DNA of 64,000 nt, taken from assembly GCA_022449455.1 (NCBI GenBank), contig JAKUPL010000005.1, forward strand, positions 62,001 through 126,000, read 5' to 3'. Under the pieces are notes generated by a model that did no database searches, was not told where the DNA came from, and was given only the letters and a program-made list of their open reading frames with translations. The first letter of the stretch is position 1. The number at the start of each line of letters is the position of its first letter. Source of the DNA: Alcanivorax sp. Lineage in GTDB: Bacteria > Pseudomonadota > Gammaproteobacteria > Pseudomonadales > Alcanivoracaceae. Below, in pieces: positions 34,744 through 61,876 of the stretch. The translations under genes and the position numbers were made by a program.

Positions 34744-36818
34744 GCCAGCAACGGGATCTGTTGATCGAACTGGGCACCGAGGAACTGCCGCCCAAGGCCC
34801 TGCCGGCCCTGAGCGCCGCCCTCACCGAGGAGCTGGTGCGCCAGCTCGACGACGCCGGCCTCGGCCATGGCGCCGTGGAAAGCTTCGCCGCGCCGCGCCG
34901 TCTGGCGGTGCTGGTGCGTGACCTGGACGCCCGCCAGCCGGACCGGCAGGTGGAGCGTCTGGGCCCGGCGGTGCAGGCCGCCTTCGATCAGGACGGCAAC
35001 CCCACCAAGGCCGCCGAGGGCTTCGCCGCCTCCGTGGGTCTGACCGTGGACCAGTTGGACCGCCAGCAGACCGACAAGGGCGAGCGCCTGTTCGCCCGGC
35101 TGGAGGAAGCCGGCCGCGCGGCCACCGAGCTGGTGCCGGAATTCGTCACCCAGGCGGTGAACAAGCTGCCGATTCCCAAGCGTATGCGCTGGGGGCGCCG
35201 CAAGGTGCAGTTCGTGCGCCCGGCCCATTGGCTGGTGGCGCTGTTCGGCACCGAGGTGATCGAGTTCGAACTGCTGGACCAGAAAGCCGGCCGCGATTCC
35301 TACGGCCATCGCTTCCACGCGCCGGACGCCATCGAACTGGCCGAGGCCGGGGACTACGCCACCCGTCTGGAACAGGACGGCAAGGTGATCGCCGACTTCG
35401 CCCGCCGCCGGGAGCTGATCCGCCAGCAGGCGGAACAGGCCGGCCACGATGCCGGTGGCGAGGCGCGTATCGACGACGATCTGCTCGACGAGGTCACCGC
35501 CCTGGTGGAATGGCCGGTGGCTCTGGCCGGTCGCTTCGACGAAGACTTCCTGCGCGTGCCCCAGGAGGCGCTGATCAGCGCCATGGAAGAGCACCAGAAG
35601 TATTTCTCGGTGCTGGACGCGGACGGCAAGCTGACGCCCACCTTCATCACCATCAGCAATATTCAGTCCCGCGATCCCCAGCAGGTGATCGCCGGCAATG
35701 AGAAAGTGATCCGCCCGCGCCTGGCGGACGCCGCCTTCTTCTACGACAACGACTGCAAAAAACCGCTGGAGCAGCACGCCCGGGGCCTGGCCCAGGTGGT
35801 GTTCCAGCAGCGGCTCGGCACGCTCGCCGACAAGTGCGAGCGCATCGGGGCCCTGGCCGGCGTGATCGCCGGTCATATTGGTGGCGACGAGCAACTGGCG
35901 CGCCGCGCCGGCGCGCTTTGCAAGGCCGATCTCAACAGCGAGATGGTCTACGAGTTCGACACCATGCAGGGCATCATGGGCTACTACCTGGCCCGCAACG
36001 AAGGGCTGCCGGAGGAGCTGGCGGAGGCGCTGCACGAGCAGTACCTGCCACGCTTCGCCGGCGACAGCCTGCCGAACACCAAGACCGGGCAGGCGGTGTC
36101 CCTGGCGGACAAGATCGATACCCTGGTGGGCATCTTCGGCATCGGCCAGACGCCCACCGGCACCAAGGACCCCTACGCGCTGCGCCGGGCCACCCTGGGC
36201 ATTCTGCGCATCATCATCGAAGGCGGTCTGGATCTGGATCTGCGCAACCTGCTGGCCCAGGCCGCGGAGCAGCTGGAAGGCCGCATCGACGCCGGTCAGG
36301 TGGACGAGGCGTTCGAGTTCGTGAAGGGCCGCTACCGGGCCATGTACCAGGAGCAGGGCATCGCCACCCCGGTGATCCTGTCGGTGCTGGCCATCGACGA
36401 CGCCTGCCGCCGGCCGCTGGATTTCGACCGCCGGGTGAAGGCGGTGGCCGCCTTCCGGCAACGCGAGGAAGCCGCCGCCCTGGCCGCCGCCAACAAGCGG
36501 GTGTCCAATATTCTCGCCAAACTGGACGAGGCGCCGCCGGAGGAAATCGACGGCGCCCTGCTGGAAGACGAAGCGGAGCAGACCCTCACCAATCTGGTGG
36601 TGGACGCCTACGAACGCAGCGAGCCGCTGCTGGAAGCCGGCGACTACGAGGCGGTGCTGGCCCTGCTGGCGGAACTGCGCGAGCCGGTGGACGCCTTCTT
36701 CGACACCGTCATGGTGATGGCCGAGGACCCGGCGGTGCGTGGCAACCGCCTGGCCCTGCTCAGCTTCCTGCGCGATCTGTTCCTGAACGTGGCCGACATC
36801 AGCCTGCTGCAGGAGTAG
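34740..36818 (+). CDS. glyS: Glycine--tRNA ligase beta subunit
   Basis: A 692-residue GlyS, the tRNA-binding partner of GlyQ. The opening [16 protein letters not shown] and the internal [20 protein letters not shown] and [15 protein letters not shown] blocks are diagnostic. The C-terminal part is the HD-like and anticodon-binding region ([16 protein letters not shown]). Translation is coupled to glyQ by a four-base overlap. Its last 20 bases overlap the convergent liv fusion gene. Confidence 0.97.
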
Positions 36819-39300
36819 AAGCACCCAGGTAGGCGTCCGCCAGCTCCGGGCTGGCGGCGATTTCCCGGGCGGTGCCCTCGGCCATCACCCGGCCGCCTTC
36901 GATCACATAGGCGCGGTCCGCCAGGGACAGGGCCAGCGCGGCCATCTGGTCCACCAGTACGATGGTCATGTTTTCCCGGCGCAGCTGATCCAGCGCCGCG
37001 AACAGCTCATCGATGATCTTCGGCGCCAGCCCCAGGGACGGCTCATCCAGCAGCAGCACCCGGGGCCGGCTCATCAGCCCCCGCGCCACCGCCAGCATCT
37101 GCTGCTCACCGCCGGACAGCAGACCGGCGCGCTGATGGCGCCGCTCGCGCAGCCGCGGGAAGCGCTCGAACATTTCTTCCAGGCGCGCCTCCCGGTCCGC
37201 CGGGCACAGGAAGGCGCCCAGTCGAATGTTGTCCTGCACCGACAGCTCCGCGAACACCTGACGCCCTTCCGGCACCAGCACCAGCCCCTGACGCACGATC
37301 GCCTCGGCGGGCATTTTTTCCAGCGCCTGGCCGTCCAGATGCACACCGCCGGCCTGCACCGGATGGAGCCCGGCCAGAGCACGCATCAGGGTGGATTTAC
37401 CGGCCCCGTTGGCGCCCAGTAGCGCCACCATTTCCCCCTGGCGCACTTTCAGGCTGATGCCGTGCAGCACCGGCTCGGCGCCGTAGCCGGCCACCAGCTT
37501 GTTGACGCCCAGCCATTCCGGGCCGGTGCGCGGCGGCCGCTCCGCCACCGGTCGCGCTTCATCCAGATCCTCGCCCAGGTAAGCCCGGCGCACCGCCGGG
37601 TCGGCACGCACCTGTTCCGGTTTGCCGGCGGCCAGCAGGCGGCCGGTGTCCAGCACCACCACCTGATCGGACACCCGCATCACCAATTCCATATCGTGCT
37701 CCACCACCATCACCGCCACGCCGGCGTCGGCGATGGCGCGCAGCAGCGCCGCCAGCCGGTCGGTGTCTTCCCGGGACAGGCCCGCCGCCGGTTCGTCCAG
37801 CAGCAGCGCGTCCGGGTCGGTGGCCAGGGCACGGGCGATTTCCACCAGCCGCCGGTCCACGTGGGGCAGTTGCGAGGCGGGCACGTCCAGCGGCCCCTGA
37901 TAGCCACAGAACGCCAACAGACCGGCGGCCCGTTGGCGTGCCGCCTTGGACAGATAGCGGCGCGCGCCGAGCAGGTTGCCGAGCCGGCCCCGGCAGGCGG
38001 CCAGGGCCACGTTGTCGGCCACCGACAGGGTGTCGAACAGTTGCGAGGTCTGATAGGTGCGGGCCACGCCGTGGCGGGCAATGCGGAAGGCGCGCCCGGC
38101 GCCCAGGGTGCGCTCGCCGAGAGCGAAGTGGCCGGCGGTGGGCGGGTAGAAGCCGCTCACCATGTTCAGCACCGTGGTCTTGCCGGCGCCGTTGGGGCCG
38201 ATCAGGCTGGTCACCGCCGCCGCCGGCACCTCCATGGTCAGATCGCTGACCGCGCGCACGCCACCGAAGGTCATGCTCAGGCCGTCCAAACGCAGCCCCT
38301 GGCGCGCACGCTCGGAGAGCGAATGACCGGCGTCGCCGGCCAGCGCCCGGGACCGGGGCGCGCCGGCGCCGGGGCGCAGCCGTGCCAGCAGATCCGCGCC
38401 CAGGCCGATCAGACCGTTGGGCGCCACCAGCAGTACCACCAGCAACAGGCCACCGAAGAACAGCAACCGGTAGGCCTCCAGGGTGGCCAGCAGTTCCGGC
38501 AGCATGCCCAGGATGGCGGCGCCGATCACCGGCCCGATCACCGAGCCGGCGCCGCCGACCACCACCACCAGGACAAACAGGATCGACTGCATGAAGCTGA
38601 ACGTGTCCGGCGTCACGAAGCCGGCCAGCGGCGCGAACAGGCCGCCGGCCAAGCCAGCCAGACCCGCCGACACCATGAACGCCACGGTCTTGATCACCAG
38701 CGGCCCCAGGCCCACCGACTCGGCGGCGGTTTCGCTGTCCTTCACCGCGCGCATGGCGGCGCCCCAGGTGCCCCGCGCCAGCAGCGTGTAGGCGACCAAT
38801 GATACCGCCAGGGTAAGCAGCGCCAGCACCGCCACGGTTTGCTCGATGCTCCAGTCGGCGCTCAGGGTCGGCGCGGCGATGCCCATGATGCCGTTCTGGC
38901 CGCCGGTGAGCGCCTCCATCTCGATGATGGCGTGCTGAACGATAAAGCTGAATGCGATGGTGACCATGGCCAGGTAGGGCCCTTTCACCCGCAGGGCGGG
39001 CAGGGCCAGAATCAGACCGGCCACGGTGGCCACCAACGCGCCGGCCAGCCAGGCCGGCCAGAACGACCAGCCCGCCTGGCTGGTGAGAATCGCCACGGTA
39101 TAGGCACCGATGGCGTAGAAGCCCACATGGCCGAAGGAAATCTGCCCGGTGAGCCCGAGCAGCACGTTGAGGCCCACGCCGACAATGGCGATCAGCGCCA
39201 CATTGGCCAGCACGTAGACGTAGTAACTGTTGAGAAAGAAGACCATCACCAGCGCGGCGACCAGCACCGCCAGGCCGGCCGGAATCGACAGGCGCTTCAT
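36799..39300 (-). CDS. Fused branched-chain-type ABC transporter LivM-LivG-LivF
   Basis: An 833-residue protein that joins three subunits normally encoded separately. Residues 1 to about 310 are a LivM-like permease with GLTGQISFGHVGFYAIGAY. Residues about 337-580 are the first ATPase (Walker A GPNGAGKTT at 368-376, Walker B LLLDEP at 499-504). Residues about 597-833 are the second ATPase (Walker A GANGAGKST at 629-637, signature LSGGE at 728-732, LLLDEP after it). In the first ATPase the signature motif is altered: where LivG has SYGxxR it reads PHVDRR (479-484), with no glycine. Either that site is inactive or the asymmetric pair uses one good site. It overlaps livH by four bases. Confidence 0.9.
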   Translation of the reverse strand: MKRLSIPAGLAVLVAALVMVFFLNSYYVYVLANVALIAIVGVGLNVLLGLTGQISFGHVGFYAIGAYTVAILTSQAGWSFWPAWLAGALVATVAGLILALPALRVKGPYLAMVTIAFSFIVQHAIIEMEALTGGQNGIMGIAAPTLSADWSIEQTVAVLALLTLAVSLVAYTLLARGTWGAAMRAVKDSETAAESVGLGPLVIKTVAFMVSAGLAGLAGGLFAPLAGFVTPDTFSFMQSILFVLVVVVGGAGSVIGPVIGAAILGMLPELLATLEAYRLLFFGGLLLVVLLVAPNGLIGLGADLLARLRPGAGAPRSRALAGDAGHSLSERARQGLRLDGLSMTFGGVRAVSDLTMEVPAAAVTSLIGPNGAGKTTVLNMVSGFYPPTAGHFALGERTLGAGRAFRIARHGVARTYQTSQLFDTLSVADNVALAACRGRLGNLLGARRYLSKAARQRAAGLLAFCGYQGPLDVPASQLPHVDRRLVEIARALATDPDALLLDEPAAGLSREDTDRLAALLRAIADAGVAVMVVEHDMELVMRVSDQVVVLDTGRLLAAGKPEQVRADPAVRRAYLGEDLDEARPVAERPPRTGPEWLGVNKLVAGYGAEPVLHGISLKVRQGEMVALLGANGAGKSTLMRALAGLHPVQAGGVHLDGQALEKMPAEAIVRQGLVLVPEGRQVFAELSVQDNIRLGAFLCPADREARLEEMFERFPRLRERRHQRAGLLSGGEQQMLAVARGLMSRPRVLLLDEPSLGLAPKIIDELFAALDQLRRENMTIVLVDQMAALALSLADRAYVIEGGRVMAEGTAREIAASPELADAYLGASTPAAG

Positions 39301-40181
39301 ACCTTTTTCACCTCCGCGCGGCCGAACAGGCCGTTGGGTCGCAGGGCCAGCGCCACGATCACCAGCGCGAAGGTGATGATGTGGGTGTAGCCGGAACCCA
39401 GGGTCATGGTGATCACGCTTTCCGCCACGCCGAACAGCAGGCCGGCGATCATCACCCCCCAGGCACTGGTGATGCCGCCCAGGATGGCCACGGAAAAGGC
39501 TTTCAGACCGAACAGGGTGCCCATGTCCGAGTTCACGTTGGCGAGCGGCGCGATCATCATGCCCGCCACTCCGGCCAGTACCGTGGACAGAGCGAAGGCG
39601 CCGGCTACCGCGCGACCGATGGGAATGCCCATCAGCCGGGCGGCGTCCCGATTCTGGCTGGTGGCCAGCAGCGCGCTGCCCCAGCGGGTGCGGCGCGCCA
39701 CCAGATGCAGGGCGGCGGCCAGCGCCAGCCCCACCAGCGGAATGATCAACTGCAGCGGGTAGACGCCCAGACCCAGCCCGCCCACTTCCACCGGCGACAC
39801 CGCCAGGGAAGAGGGCAGGCTGCGCGGCTCCTTGCCGAAGGTGTGCATCACCACGTTATCCAGCACGATGCCCAGCGCCACCGTGGACATCAGCCAGGCA
39901 TCGGAGCCGCGCCGCACGAACGGCCGCACCGCCAGCCGCTCCACCAGCAGGCCGTACACCGCGCACAGCACCAGCGCCGCCGGCACCGCCAGCTCGATGG
40001 GCCAGCCCAGGGTCTGGGCGAAGGTGTAGCAGAGCACCGCCCCCAGCATCATCGAGCTGCCCTGGGCGAAGTTCACCGTGCCCGAGACCGCGAAGGTGAT
40101 GTAGAAGCCCAGGGCCATGAGGCCGTACATGCTGCCCATGCCCAGGCCACTGATCAGCGCCGATACCAGCTGCGTGTCCAT
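39297..40181 (-). CDS. Branched-chain-type ABC transporter permease (LivH-like)
   Basis: A 294-residue permease with about eight membrane segments. The LivH hallmarks are ALISGLGMGSMYGLMALGFY at the start, GTVNFAQGS and, in the second half, AGALAAVAGGMMIAP-type and FGLKAFSVAILGGITSAWG. It pairs with the LivM domain of the fusion protein to form the pore. It lies between livK (ten bases upstream) and the fusion gene (four-base overlap), making the order livK-livH-livMGF, all on one transcript. Confidence 0.9.
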   Translation of the reverse strand: MDTQLVSALISGLGMGSMYGLMALGFYITFAVSGTVNFAQGSSMMLGAVLCYTFAQTLGWPIELAVPAALVLCAVYGLLVERLAVRPFVRRGSDAWLMSTVALGIVLDNVVMHTFGKEPRSLPSSLAVSPVEVGGLGLGVYPLQLIIPLVGLALAAALHLVARRTRWGSALLATSQNRDAARLMGIPIGRAVAGAFALSTVLAGVAGMMIAPLANVNSDMGTLFGLKAFSVAILGGITSAWGVMIAGLLFGVAESVITMTLGSGYTHIITFALVIVALALRPNGLFGRAEVKKV

Positions 40182-40191
40182 AGTGTTTCCG

Positions 40192-41376
40192 TCAGTCGCT
40201 CAGACCAACCGGCACGATGCGGTTGTCGATGAATTGCGCCCACACATAATCCTGCGGGCCCAGGGCGTCGTGCTGCTCCTTGGAGAACGGGCTTTGGTAG
40301 GTTTTGATCAGACCCGGGTAGGTGCCGATCTCGTAATAGCCTTCGCGAATGGCGTCGCCGTCGGTGGAACCGGCGTTTTCGATGGCCAGGGCGGTCAGGT
40401 GCATGGCGTCATACGCATTGGCCACGCCCACCGCCGGGGTGATGTCCTGCGGGCCCTTGATGTCGTCGTATTTGTCCTTCAGCGCGGCGATCACCTTTTC
40501 GCCCACTTCGGACTGGTCGCCAAAGAAGCTGTAGGTCTGCACGAAGTGCACTTTCTCGGCGCCGGGACCGGCCAGCTCGGTGAAGCGACCGCCGGCGGGG
40601 CCCCAATGGGACACGATCGGCACGTCCCAGCCCATGCGGCGCAGGGATTTCACCACCTGGGCGGAGGGGCCCACGTTGCCCACCAGGGCAATGGTGTCGG
40701 CGCCGGCGTCACGCAGGCGGGTCAGCTGCGGCACCACGTCGATGGCGTCGCCGTCGAATTTTTCACTGCCGGCGGGCTTCATGCCCTTGGCGTCCAGCGC
40801 CGCCACCAGGCCCTTGTGGTTGGATTCGCCCCAAGGGTTGTTGATCATCAGCAGGCCGAATTTTTCCGAACCGAAGGTTTTCTGGGCGTACTCCACCATG
40901 GCCACGTCCACCAGCTCGTCCATGGCGGACACCCGGAACGCGAAGTTCGGATCGGCGCCGTTCTTGGTGATCGGCGTGCCCGCCGCCCAGGGGTCCATGA
41001 AGGGCATCTTCGCTTGGTTGGCCAGCGGCACGATGGCCAGCGCCACCGGCGTGTCGAGCCCGCCGAACAGCACCGCCACCTTTTCTTTATGGATCAGTTC
41101 ACGGGCGGCCACCACGCCTTTGGCGGGGTTGGACTCGTCGTCCCGACGCACCAGCACCAGTTCACGGCCGCCGAGCACGCCGCCGGCGGCGTTGATTTCA
41201 TCGATGGCCAGTTGCACGCCACGGGAGATGGCCTGGCCGGCCAGGGCCGACTGCCCGGACAAGGCCGTGATCAGGCCGATCTTCACCGGCTCCGCCGCCA
41301 CGGCGGCGCGCCACGGCAGCACGGCCAGCAGCGCGGTGAGCGCGGCGGCCACTAAAACGCGAGAGATACGCAACAT
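40192..41376 (-). CDS. Periplasmic substrate-binding protein of a branched-chain-type ABC transporter (LivK-like)
   Basis: A 394-residue type I periplasmic binding protein with a signal peptide (cleavage near AVAAE, about 28). The mature start EPVKIGLITALSGQSALAGQ and AIDEINAAGGVLGGRELVLV are typical of Peripla_BP_6/HAAT-family proteins. Members bind branched-chain amino acids, amides, urea, aromatic acids or other small molecules, so the name livK says nothing about the ligand here. The divergent amide-hydrolase-like gene and the sigma-54 promoter (41446-41461) point to a nitrogen compound. GGGGGAATCCC precedes the ATG. Confidence 0.87.
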   Translation of the reverse strand: MLRISRVLVAAALTALLAVLPWRAAVAAEPVKIGLITALSGQSALAGQAISRGVQLAIDEINAAGGVLGGRELVLVRRDDESNPAKGVVAARELIHKEKVAVLFGGLDTPVALAIVPLANQAKMPFMDPWAAGTPITKNGADPNFAFRVSAMDELVDVAMVEYAQKTFGSEKFGLLMINNPWGESNHKGLVAALDAKGMKPAGSEKFDGDAIDVVPQLTRLRDAGADTIALVGNVGPSAQVVKSLRRMGWDVPIVSHWGPAGGRFTELAGPGAEKVHFVQTYSFFGDQSEVGEKVIAALKDKYDDIKGPQDITPAVGVANAYDAMHLTALAIENAGSTDGDAIREGYYEIGTYPGLIKTYQSPFSKEQHDALGPQDYVWAQFIDNRIVPVGLSD

Positions 41377-41445
41377 GGGATTCCCCCTTCAAGTGTTGGG
41401 ATGAACCGGACGGCGGCGTTTGCCGCTGATCCGCTCCACCGACAA

Positions 41446-41461
41446 CGCAAAGCCCGTGCCA
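41446..41461 (-). promoter_or_regulatory. Sigma-54 promoter for livK-livH-livMGF
   Basis: On the minus strand the sequence reads TGGCACGGGCTTTGCG: TGGCAC at -24, five bases, TTGC at -12, with GG and GC ten bases apart as required for RpoN. The predicted transcript start is near 41435, about 60 bases before the livK ATG. The 15-base core is the same as at the nirB promoter (61861-61876). Confidence 0.82.
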
Positions 41462-41481
41462 TGTTGCGGTTTTCCGGTATC

Positions 41482-41497
41482 GGGCACGTAAATTGCT
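41482..41497 (+). promoter_or_regulatory. Sigma-54 promoter for the NTF2-deacetylase-GntR-SDR operon
   Basis: GGGCACGTAAATTGCT matches TGGCAC-N5-TTGCT with one change (first base G) and exact GG/GC spacing. The predicted start is near 41509. It is placed back to back with the livK promoter, the two -24 elements being 20 bases apart. Confidence 0.72.
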
Positions 41498-41526
41498 TTA
41501 ATTTCTGGCGTCACTTAAACCTTTAA

Positions 41527-41536
41527 TTGTCGACAA
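41527..41536. promoter_or_regulatory. TTGTCGACAA palindrome, candidate GntR/FCD operator
   Basis: A perfect ten-base palindrome in an AT-rich flank, about 18 bases downstream of the predicted start of the plus-strand operon. FCD-type GntR repressors often bind sites with the TTGTnnACAA layout, and this operon encodes one. Confidence 0.5.
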
Positions 41537-41654
41537 AAAATCCCCGGATCGTGGCGGATTGATGCCGCCGCCCGGCGCCCCGGAACGGACTCTGGATGGC
41601 CCCCCAACCATCGGCCCGGCGCGCACAGGCAAGGGGCAAGAAGGAGACCCGACC

Positions 41655-42095
41655 ATGGACAACGCACCAGAGTGGAACAGCGACACGCCGATTCGCGACC
41701 CCGCCGCCCTCATCGATACCTATCTGACCATCCTGATGAAACCGGACCCGGACACCGCCCGCCAATTCGTGGCGCCGGACCTGGTGATCCGCTTCACCGG
41801 CAACCGGCCGATGGCCGACCCCGCGGAATGCACGGCCTTCAACCGTGACCGCTACGGCTGGGTGAAAAAGCGCTTCGAAGCCACCGAGGTGGTGGCCGGC
41901 GGCACGTTGGCGCGGGCGGTGGTCTACAACATCGGCACCCTCTATGGGGAATGGCCGGACGGCACGCCTTTTGAAGGCAACCGCTACGTGGACCGTTACG
42001 TGGTACGCGACGGACGGATTACCGAAATGGATGTGTGGAACGACAGCGCCGAATGGCTGCTGACCCGCGCCGGCCTGGCCCAGGACGCCTCATGA
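41655..42095 (+). CDS. NTF2-like/SnoaL-type small protein
   Basis: A 146-residue protein with the cone-shaped NTF2-like fold pattern: an N-terminal helix (PAALIDTYLTILMKPD), then strands ending with the typical RYVDRYVVRDGRITEMDVWND. Family members are isomerases, dehydratases, hydrolases or accessory subunits. No catalytic set can be assigned. AAGGAG lies just before ATG 41655. The stop overlaps the deacetylase start (ATGA), so the two proteins are made together, suggesting sequential or joint action. Confidence 0.75.
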   Translation: MDNAPEWNSDTPIRDPAALIDTYLTILMKPDPDTARQFVAPDLVIRFTGNRPMADPAECTAFNRDRYGWVKKRFEATEVVAGGTLARAVVYNIGTLYGEWPDGTPFEGNRYVDRYVVRDGRITEMDVWNDSAEWLLTRAGLAQDAS

Positions 42096-42991
42096 ACCAA
42101 ACACAGCCCTTCGCGCCGCTGGCCGATCACGGCCGCTTCGATTACCAGGGCATCCATCAGCGACCGGACTACCACTGGCCCGGCGGCAAACGCCTGGCGG
42201 TGTACCTGGGGTTCAACCTGGAACACTTCGCCTTCGGCGAGGGCATGGGCGCCCAGCTCGGCGCCCGGTTCGCCGAGCCGGATGTGCTCAACTACGCCTG
42301 GCGTGAATACGGCAACCGGGTAGGCGCCTGGCGCTGCCTGGAGCTGTTCGATGCCCTGGGCCTGCCCGCCGGCACCATCGCCAACACCGCGCTCTACGAT
42401 CATTGCCCGGAACTGCTGGAGGCCTGCGCCGCCCGCGGCGACGAACTGATCGCCCACGGCCACAGCAACGCCACCTACCAGGGCACGCTCGCGGAAGACG
42501 AGGAAAAAGCGCTGCTGGCCCACTGTCGCGAGCGCATGGCGGCGGCCTCCGGCGCCGCGCCGTCCGGCTGGCTGTCGCCGTGGATCGGCGAATCCCGGCA
42601 CACCCCGGACCTGCTGGCGGAAACCGGCTATCGCTATACCCTGAACTGGTGCCACGACGATCAGCCGGTACGCATGCGCACCCGCGACGGGCGCGGGCTG
42701 TGGGCGATTCCCTATCCCCAGGAAGTGAACGACATTCCGATGATCATCGCCCGCAAACTGGACGCCCGGGCGTTCGCCGATATGATCGTGGATCAGTTCG
42801 ACGAAATGCTGGTGCAGTCGGAGCGGCAGCCGTTGGTGATGGGCATTGCCCTGCACCCCTATTTGATGGGTCAGCCCTACCGACTGCGACATCTGCGCCG
42901 GGCCCTGACTCATATCGCCGCGCACCGGGACGCGCTGTGGCTGACCACTCCCGGCGCCATCTGCGACCACATGGACGATCTGTTTTTATGA
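42092..42991 (+). CDS. Carbohydrate-esterase-4 (polysaccharide deacetylase) family hydrolase, PuuE-like
   Basis: A 299-residue CE4/NodB-fold protein of the group that includes PuuE allantoinases rather than true chitin deacetylases. The motif set is FNLEHFAFGEG (about 34-44), the metal-site region IAHGHSNATYQG and GWLSPWIGESRHTPDLLAE. Such enzymes hydrolyse cyclic or linear amide bonds in ureides and related small molecules. There is no signal peptide, so it is cytosolic, agreeing with a catabolic role after import by the divergent ABC system. The substrate is unknown. Translation is coupled to both the NTF2-like gene and the GntR gene. Confidence 0.8.
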   Translation: MNQTQPFAPLADHGRFDYQGIHQRPDYHWPGGKRLAVYLGFNLEHFAFGEGMGAQLGARFAEPDVLNYAWREYGNRVGAWRCLELFDALGLPAGTIANTALYDHCPELLEACAARGDELIAHGHSNATYQGTLAEDEEKALLAHCRERMAAASGAAPSGWLSPWIGESRHTPDLLAETGYRYTLNWCHDDQPVRMRTRDGRGLWAIPYPQEVNDIPMIIARKLDARAFADMIVDQFDEMLVQSERQPLVMGIALHPYLMGQPYRLRHLRRALTHIAAHRDALWLTTPGAICDHMDDLFL

Positions 42992-43752
42992 ACGCTACCG
43001 CCCCCAAGGGCCGGGGCCGGCCCAAGGTCCGCCCCCAGGCCCTGGCCGGCCAGGCGCCGGCGGCCCGTGAAAAGCCCGCCGACAAGGAGCAACGTATCTA
43101 CGCCGCCATCGTCGACCGGGTGATGGAACAGCGGCTCAAACCCGGCACCCGCTTGCCGGAAGCCGCCCTCTGCGAACTGTTCGGCGTGGGCCGGACCCTG
43201 GTTCAGAAAGTGCTGCAGCGGCTCGCCCACGACCACATCGTGGAGCTGCGGCCCAATCGCAGTGCCATCGTCGCCATGCCCAGCCGCGAGGACGTGGGCA
43301 AGCTGTTCGAGGCCCGCCGCGCCCTGGAAGCGGCGGTGCTACCGCTGGTGGCGGCCCATGCCAGCCGCGCCGATTACGCGTCCCTGCGCCGCCAGCTGCG
43401 CAAGGAGCAAAACGCCATGCACCGCTACGCCCAGAGCGAATGGGCGGGCCTGGCCAGCGCCTTTCATTTGCGGCTGGGCGAGCTGTCCCGCAACCCCATG
43501 CTGCACCGCTATCTGGCCGAGATCATTTCCCGCTGCTGCCTGGTGGTGGCCTTGTTTCAGCCTCCGGGCAACGCCACCTGCGAGCACGACGAGCACGGGC
43601 GGGTGGTGGATTGCCTGGAGGCCGGCGACGTGGCCGGCGCCCAGCGCGAGAACGACCGCCACCTGCGGGACCTGGAAGCCCACCTTCAGCTGGTCGAGGA
43701 AGACACGGATCTGAGCCTGGCGGACATGCTCGGGCTGCCCGGTCGCTCTTGA
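42988..43752 (+). CDS. GntR-family regulator with FCD domain
   Basis: A 254-residue regulator. A basic, Pro-rich N-terminal tail (about 1-30) precedes the winged helix (EQRLKPGTRLPEAALCELFGVGRTLVQKVL, shown by residues about 48-75) and an all-helical FCD ligand domain whose metal-binding His residues are suggested in FHLRLGELSRNP and EHDEHG. FCD regulators usually sense the pathway substrate or an intermediate. It is the third gene of the operon, overlapping the deacetylase gene by four bases, and probably acts at the TTGTCGACAA palindrome. Confidence 0.83.
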   Translation: MNATAPKGRGRPKVRPQALAGQAPAAREKPADKEQRIYAAIVDRVMEQRLKPGTRLPEAALCELFGVGRTLVQKVLQRLAHDHIVELRPNRSAIVAMPSREDVGKLFEARRALEAAVLPLVAAHASRADYASLRRQLRKEQNAMHRYAQSEWAGLASAFHLRLGELSRNPMLHRYLAEIISRCCLVVALFQPPGNATCEHDEHGRVVDCLEAGDVAGAQRENDRHLRDLEAHLQLVEEDTDLSLADMLGLPGRS

Positions 43753-43831
43753 GATCGTCGCGGACCGTCGCCACTAGACAGGGAGACCGGCTCGTTTTCG
43801 AGTTCCCCCACATCAGCAAGGGAGTGTGAGC

Positions 43832-44626
43832 ATGCGTATCGATCTGTCCGGCAAGAAAGCGGTGGTGTCCGGATCCACCGCCGGCATCGGCTTCGGCATC
43901 GTCCAGGGCCTGGCGGCCGCCGGCGCCGAGGTGGTGATCACCGGCCGAACCCGCCAGCGCGTGGATCAAGCCATCGAGCGGCTCAAGGCCGACCAGCCGG
44001 ACGCCGCCCCCCACGGCGTGGAAGCGGACCTGGGCACCGCCGAAGGGTGCCAGGCCCTGATCGACGCCCATCCGGAAGCGGATATTCTGGTCAATAACGT
44101 GGGCATTTTCCGGCCCACGCCGTTTTTTGATATTTCCGACGAAGACTGGGAGCAGTTTTTCCAGGTCAATGTGATGAGCGCGGTACGTTTATCCCGTCAT
44201 TACGCCCAGGGTATGAAAAAACGGGATTGGGGCCGGGTGCTGTTTCTGTCCAGTGAATCGGCGCTCAATATTCCCACCGAAATGGTTCATTACGGCATGA
44301 CCAAGACCGCCGTGCAGTCCATCTCCCGGGGCCTGGCCAAGGTGCTCAGCGGCACCAACGTGACCGTCAACGCGGTATTGCCCGGACCCACCCGTTCCGA
44401 GGGCGTCGGCAAAATGCTGCATGAAATGGCCCGGGAAAAAGGCCTCTCCGAACAAGAGATGGAAAAACGCTTCGTGAAGGAAAACCGGCCCAGCTCCATT
44501 ATTCAGCGGGTCGCGGACGTGGAGGAGGTGGCCAATATGGTGGTCTATCTGGCGTCGCCGCAGGCCTCCGCCACCACCGGCGCGGCCCTGCGCGTGGAAG
44601 GTGGGATCGTGGATACCATGGCCTGA
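43832..44626 (+). CDS. Short-chain dehydrogenase/reductase
   Basis: A 264-residue classical SDR: the NAD(P) motif GSTAGIGFG (about 15-23), NNVG in the core, and the catalytic Tyr-x3-Lys in YGMTK with Ser upstream (LSSESALN). The tail AALRVEGGIVDT is the usual end. It would oxidise or reduce an alcohol/carbonyl of unknown identity. It is 79 bases from the GntR gene on the same strand and may be part of the operon, though the gap leaves room for a separate promoter. ATG 43832 follows AAGGGAG; the GTG six bases earlier is less likely. Confidence 0.82.
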   Translation: MRIDLSGKKAVVSGSTAGIGFGIVQGLAAAGAEVVITGRTRQRVDQAIERLKADQPDAAPHGVEADLGTAEGCQALIDAHPEADILVNNVGIFRPTPFFDISDEDWEQFFQVNVMSAVRLSRHYAQGMKKRDWGRVLFLSSESALNIPTEMVHYGMTKTAVQSISRGLAKVLSGTNVTVNAVLPGPTRSEGVGKMLHEMAREKGLSEQEMEKRFVKENRPSSIIQRVADVEEVANMVVYLASPQASATTGAALRVEGGIVDTMA

Positions 44627-61860: not shown

Positions 61861-61876
61861 AGCAAAGCCCGTGCCA
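61861..61876 (-). promoter_or_regulatory. Sigma-54 promoter of nirBD
   Basis: The minus strand reads TGGCACGGGCTTTGCT, a full match to TGGCAC-N5-TTGCT. The transcript start would be near 61850, placing the first leader hairpin about nine bases into the RNA. Confidence 0.88.

Follow-up and report, generated by a model that had tools for sequence, protein, structure and literature searches.

A divergent importer and hydrolase locus between glyS and gmhB

What might a liv-type importer bring into the cell when its genes stand back to back with those of a hydrolase whose top match by sequence is PuuE? The question is raised by a locus between glyS and gmhB in an Alloalcanivorax-like genome (its CE4 protein is 98% identical to that of A. 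marinus NMRL4), a genus of oil-degrading bacteria, in which a 64-kb stretch of DNA, hereafter the window, was analyzed. On the minus strand are livK, for a periplasmic binding protein (40192-41376; Pfam Peripla_BP_6), livH, for an importer permease (39297-40181; BPD_transp_2), and livMGF (36799-39300; BPD_transp_2 and twice ABC_tran), a single gene of 833 amino acids that joins the LivM permease to the LivG and LivF ATPases. Divergent from these, on the plus strand, are genes for an NTF2-fold (SnoaL-like) protein (41655-42095; SnoaL_2), a CE4/PuuE-like hydrolase as the candidate ring-opening enzyme (42092-42991; Polysacc_deac_1), an FCD-type GntR regulator (gntR, 42988-43752; GntR and FCD), and an SDR dehydrogenase (43826-44626; adh_short). 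The Pfam families given are those over their gathering scores, and ATG starts were chosen for NTF2, CE4, and GntR, all three of which begin further upstream in the mechanical list of open reading frames. Three of the five same-strand neighbor pairs (livH/livMGF, NTF2/CE4, and CE4/gntR) overlap by 4 nucleotides. The divergent layout that a preliminary description had read from the DNA is therefore present, and the Pfam families agree with it.

Its proposal that the SDR gene closes the operon fared otherwise. The SDR gene lies on the same strand as gntR after a gap of 73 nucleotides, yet a lone SDR gene (79 to 86% identity) occupies the glyS-gmhB gap in four relatives that have no module (G023, G025, G026, and G027), and three relatives (L054, L055, and L056) have the module and no SDR gene. 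Because it sits in that gap with or without the module, we rejected it as an operon member and treat it as a bystander. One further relative, G029, has no module either, and its glyS-gmhB gap contains four short matches, in order, to the module locus of its relatives (L220, 7282-7770), three falling within livMGF and the fourth within the gap next to gmhB; its ancestor therefore probably had the module, of whose loss these matches would be the scar.

Conservation across genomes

A scan for CE4 peptide patterns across 84,980 species, each represented by one genome, returned 581 stretches, of which 569 were relatives by tblastn; the best 80 of the 569 were kept, and 62 of these had at least 5.6 kb upstream and at least 3.2 kb downstream. 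A homologue of LivK was found in 54 of the 62 loci, one of GntR likewise in 54, and NTF2 in 49, counts that favor a shared layout because the 80 kept loci are the nearest relatives. The SDR gene was found in only four, all of them Alloalcanivorax. The gene set first described was also incomplete: an amidase gene immediately follows CE4 in 49 of the 62 loci, whereas the window has no linked amidase. Both of the two linked amidases tested scored over the NF006169 cut-off. Among 62 loci in which LivM, LivG, and LivF all reach at least 50% identity, 55 have them in a single open frame and the remaining 7 have LivM and LivG alone fused. With a gene order that recurs in other genera and a fusion kept to this extent, the arrangement is more than chance.

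Across the phylum, the association is looser. A sample of 398 genomes contained 24 with a CE4 match at an E value of 1e-60; the window genome, G020, and G152 have liv genes and G317 does not, and with four weaker matches left out, 16 further loci were examined. Near CE4 in these were LivK in 4 of 16, NTF2 in 5, a GGT gene in 4, and a PotD-type importer gene in 5. Co-conservation of CE4 and liv genes, whose absence the preliminary description had named as a refutation of its reading, thus holds among near relatives and weakens across the phylum, which we count against the reading preferred below.

Promoter region and proposed nitrogen control

The livK-NTF2 intergenic region holds sequence elements, all within 41447-41536, that go beyond what had been described. 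A perfect copy of the sigma-54-type (-24/-12) promoter element that was sought, TGGCAYRNNNNTTGC, lies at 41447-41461 on the minus strand, toward livK; a copy with one mismatch lies at 41482-41496 on the plus strand, toward NTF2-CE4-gntR; and a palindrome, TTGTCGACAA, which we propose as the operator of the FCD-GntR protein, lies at 41527-41536. Among 51 distinct divergent LivK-NTF2 intergenic regions (those of L054 and L068 are the same and were counted once), the sigma-54 element was perfect in 48 and had one mismatch in 3, compared with 1 and 19 of 1,020 shuffles, which keep base content only and ignore kinship among loci. Allowing one mismatch, it was present on both strands in 33 regions, on the minus strand only in 17, and on the plus strand only in 1. 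The palindrome, which was picked from the window's own sequence, was found within one mismatch in 48 of the 51 regions versus 5 of 1,020 such shuffles. Sites of the NtrC type are enriched in the relatives, occurring within two mismatches in 30 of the 51 regions versus 13 of 255 shuffles; those of the window are unconvincing, the best having three mismatches, and this we count against the reading preferred below. RpoN is present in the genome.

Perfect sigma-54 elements number two in the 64-kb window, against 0.13 expected. The second, at 61862-61876 on the minus strand, has the same 15 bases as the livK element and lies upstream of nirB, whose product scores as a nirB-type nitrite reductase (1072.8 bits, cut-off 578.35; start codon chosen by us).

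The element was also sought in 27 CE4 loci of other layouts, where 13 perfect copies were found in 440 kb, spread over 12 loci. Ten of the 13 precede an importer match by 7 to 114 bp (seven PotA-type, two LivK, and one TTT-type); of the other three, two lie upstream of NTF2 or CE4 and one lies 450 bp upstream of a CE4 paralogue. Fifteen of the 27 loci have no perfect copy, which counts against the preferred reading, and 11 of these (L059, L123, L125, L129, L130, L132, L137, L138, L198, L203, and L204) are also without liv, PotD-type, and racemase matches. Taken as promoters and operator, the divergent sigma-54-type elements and the palindrome would be new evidence for a role of the module in nitrogen metabolism, and the module is probably switched on under nitrogen shortage.

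A PuuE-like hydrolase that is not PuuE

The predicted CE4 structure (mean pLDDT, 85.3) returned PuuE (3cl6) as the first-ranked Foldseek match, with a TM score of 0.82 at 25% identity, in line with the sequence match. Against the PuuE model TIGR03212, however, CE4 scored 104.4 bits, short of the cut-off of 424.6, while it passed the gathering score of Polysacc_deac_1 (24.9 versus 23.1 bits). The metal-binding motif of CE4/NodB enzymes is His-x3-His; here the positions are His122-x3-Asn126, both invariant in 40 sequences, and in alignment PuuE 3cl6 likewise has no second His. Predicted to have the PuuE fold, the module CE4 is nonetheless not PuuE.

Could it be a second allantoinase, with the module serving the uptake and opening of allantoin? 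The predicted fold would suit that role, as would two features of a separate locus of the genome (L158, 4603-8018) that encodes a PuuE and a GntR: the module GntR is 37% identical to the GntR there, and a copy of the palindrome with one mismatch lies upstream of that puuE. The PuuE of that locus, however, scores 479.8 bits, over the cut-off that CE4 misses so widely, and on these two scores we rejected the second allantoinase as very unlikely.

Another precedent for the reaction is the HxnM/HxnN pair of Aspergillus nidulans, in which, according to excerpts of PMC9304392, a CE4-type cyclic imidase is followed by an amide hydrolase; HxnM is there proposed to hydrolyze the 3-hydroxypiperidine-2,6-dione ring, and structure 3qbu is called related to cyclic imidases.

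Further CE4 relatives were seen outside the module. One, a CE4/PuuE-like paralogue in L159 (8223-9089, minus strand), is 37% identical to the window CE4 and lies beside an importer that is TRAP-type by eye; other genomes have tandem pairs of such paralogues; and in L059 and L198, CE4 relatives lie between genes named by eye, from their translations, as molybdenum-hydroxylase-type and CobW-type GTPase.

Importer and NTF2 protein

By Pfam, the importer comprises a type 1 binding protein, two permeases, and two ATPases, the make-up of HAAT importers. Might it then be an ordinary importer of branched-chain amino acids or urea, with the CE4 arm adjacent by accident? The fused ATPases do score over the UrtD, UrtE, and LptB cut-offs, although these whole-protein scores are summed over two domains and are non-specific. 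LivK, in contrast, reached 72.9 bits against the amino-acid binding-protein model (cut-off, 477) and 69.1 bits against the urea model UrtA (cut-off, 492.75). In the columns aligned to LivJ, at positions that we take to be its alpha-amino-acid contacts, those contacts are replaced. With the linkage to CE4 conserved and the promoter region shared as well, we regard an ordinary importer as most improbable.

As to what LivK may bind, Trp130 and Trp258 do not vary among 36 sequences and would suit a flat ligand. A fold search with LivK returned proteins with many types of ligand, the best being 4q6w with a hydroxybenzoate, and so singled out no ligand.

The NTF2 protein has a PDB match, 9mua, that carries the name Tautomerase. 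We did not adopt this function, because only residues 63-179 of 186 are covered by the match, and it is probably the N-terminal part to which the name applies.

Ureide and amide genes near CE4 in other genomes

The gene neighborhoods of other CE4 loci bear on the substrate. In 58 loci with at least 8 kb upstream, an HpxZ-type gene was found in 22, directly after livF in 21 of them, and a GGT match in 15, one of which is a fragment; all five HpxZ-type genes tested were over the HpxZ cut-off. In Herbaspirillum-type genomes, HpxZ-type, GGT, and amidase genes share the CE4 locus. A PotD-type importer match was found in 11 of 110 loci and a racemase-family match in 9, one of them weak; the two coincide in 6 loci, all without LivK. 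Pfam confirmed Asp/Glu/hydantoin racemase in the three that were tested. At L058, CE4 lies beside hydantoinase/carbamoylase genes and beside others that resemble caprolactamase genes but score under their cut-offs. None of HpxW, HpxY, and HpxZ was found among the seven window proteins scanned. Together, the neighbors in some relatives (HpxZ, an HpxW-like GGT, and the hydantoin-racemase family) suggest that the substrate is a cyclic ureide or imide.

The window genome encodes an amidase elsewhere. An unlinked operon (L157, 7571-14551), a candidate oxalurate-type locus, has genes for a TRAP-type importer (by eye), an NF006169 amidase, HpxZ, a GntR, and a GGT; the amidase is 47% identical to the CE4-linked amidase of a relative, and the locus has its own importer and regulator. 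Neither a perfect sigma-54 element nor a copy of the operator within one mismatch was found there, so only gene content ties it to the module. This absence, the lack of a linked amidase in the window, and the retention of an L157-type locus in G029 after the probable loss of the module are all counted against the preferred reading. Among 13 genomes of the genus, NF006169 was over its cut-off in 9 and a CE4 orthologue was present in 8, all within those 9, a co-occurrence that lends weak support because the species are related.

A bolder version of the reading preferred below names the chemistry: an oxidized-purine ureide route converging on oxalurate, in which CE4 would open parabanate or a 5-substituted hydantoin, the amidase with HpxZ would convert oxalurate to oxamate, and an HpxW-like GGT would release oxalate and ammonia. 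That Herbaspirillum-type genomes keep HpxZ-type, GGT, and amidase genes at the CE4 locus speaks for this route, as do the racemase-family genes of PotD-type loci and the GGT of L157, whose best PDB match is 5hft, presumably the Klebsiella HpxW. We also count in its favor that HpxY is given as an oxalurate amidohydrolase in excerpts of PMC12625717 and HpxW as an oxamate amidohydrolase in excerpts of PMC5270733. A 1965 report, by its title as cited in PMC11326118, concerns an oxamate transcarbamylase induced by parabanic acid. Yet HpxZ-type and GGT genes occur in a minority of the 58 loci, racemase genes in few of the 110, and the CE4-linked amidase, an NF006169 protein, is not AtzE (167.9 bits, cut-off 425.75). 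We therefore hold the oxalurate route to be possible but doubtful. Extended to a bacterial pathway, as yet undescribed, for recovering nitrogen from purines or pyrimidines damaged by oxidation, the idea is unlikely; cyclic ureides such as parabanate and 5-hydroxyhydantoin would be imported, opened by CE4 to oxalurate-type acids, and converted in Hpx-like fashion, through oxamate, to oxalate and ammonia.

A probable nitrogen-controlled module for cyclic amides

The reading we favor, and consider probable, is that of a module controlled by nitrogen limitation that imports a small cyclic amide and opens its ring. Under nitrogen limitation, RNA polymerase with sigma-54 would transcribe both arms from back-to-back promoters, and GntR would repress them through the palindrome until an effector, probably the substrate or product, is present. 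LivK would bind a small, probably flat cyclic amide (a ureide or imide), to be imported by LivH-LivMGF; CE4 would then hydrolyze a C-N bond of the ring, the reaction of PuuE on allantoin and the one proposed for HxnM. Deamidation of the resulting linear amide would fall to the amidase encoded beside CE4 in most near relatives and possibly to the amidase of L157 in this genome. The NTF2 protein may be an accessory protein. The initial proposal that the locus imports and hydrolyzes a nitrogen-rich small molecule is in keeping with the sigma-54-type promoters, the predicted PuuE-like fold, and the ureide and amide genes beside CE4 elsewhere.

Among the literature matches listed on cyclic imide hydrolases, half-amidases, the gene set itself, hydantoin clusters, Hpx genes, parabanate, 9mua, and SnoaL tautomerases, mostly from outside subscription journals, there was no description of the module and no matching characterized cluster, consistent with the earlier remark that this gene set is not a described pathway. 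On the preferred reading, recurrent genes that annotation would label no further than polysaccharide deacetylase, NTF2, and branched-chain amino-acid transport gain a testable nitrogen-scavenging role, for which a promoter, an operator, and the order of the enzymes are predicted. Should the substrate prove to be a ureide, enzymes would be named for cyclic nitrogen compounds about whose breakdown genes little or nothing is known.

Comparison with known systems

The module resembles HAAT importers (Liv and Urt) in domain make-up and in the fold of LivK; it differs from them in having LivM-G-F in one gene and a binding protein under both cut-offs. With the allantoinase PuuE it shares the predicted CE4 fold and would share the hydrolysis of a ring C-N bond, whereas its CE4 is only a quarter identical, falls far under the family cut-off, and lies in another operon of a genome that has its own PuuE. 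The cyclic imide hydrolase of Pseudomonas putida and HxnM/HxnN, as far as the excerpts of PMC9304392 describe them, likewise pair a CE4-type imidase with an amide hydrolase; the window CE4 is closer to PuuE than to 3qbu, the proxy through which alone this comparison was made. Relative to the Klebsiella hpx and ggt-atzG-atzE-atzH clusters, as given in excerpts of PMC6219798, the likeness is that HpxZ/AtzH-type, GGT, and amidase-signature genes adjoin the module in some relatives, and the differences are that none of these lies in the window and that the module amidase is of the NF006169 family rather than AtzE. A further difference from the Klebsiella hpx clusters is that the module has a liv importer and an NTF2-CE4 core.
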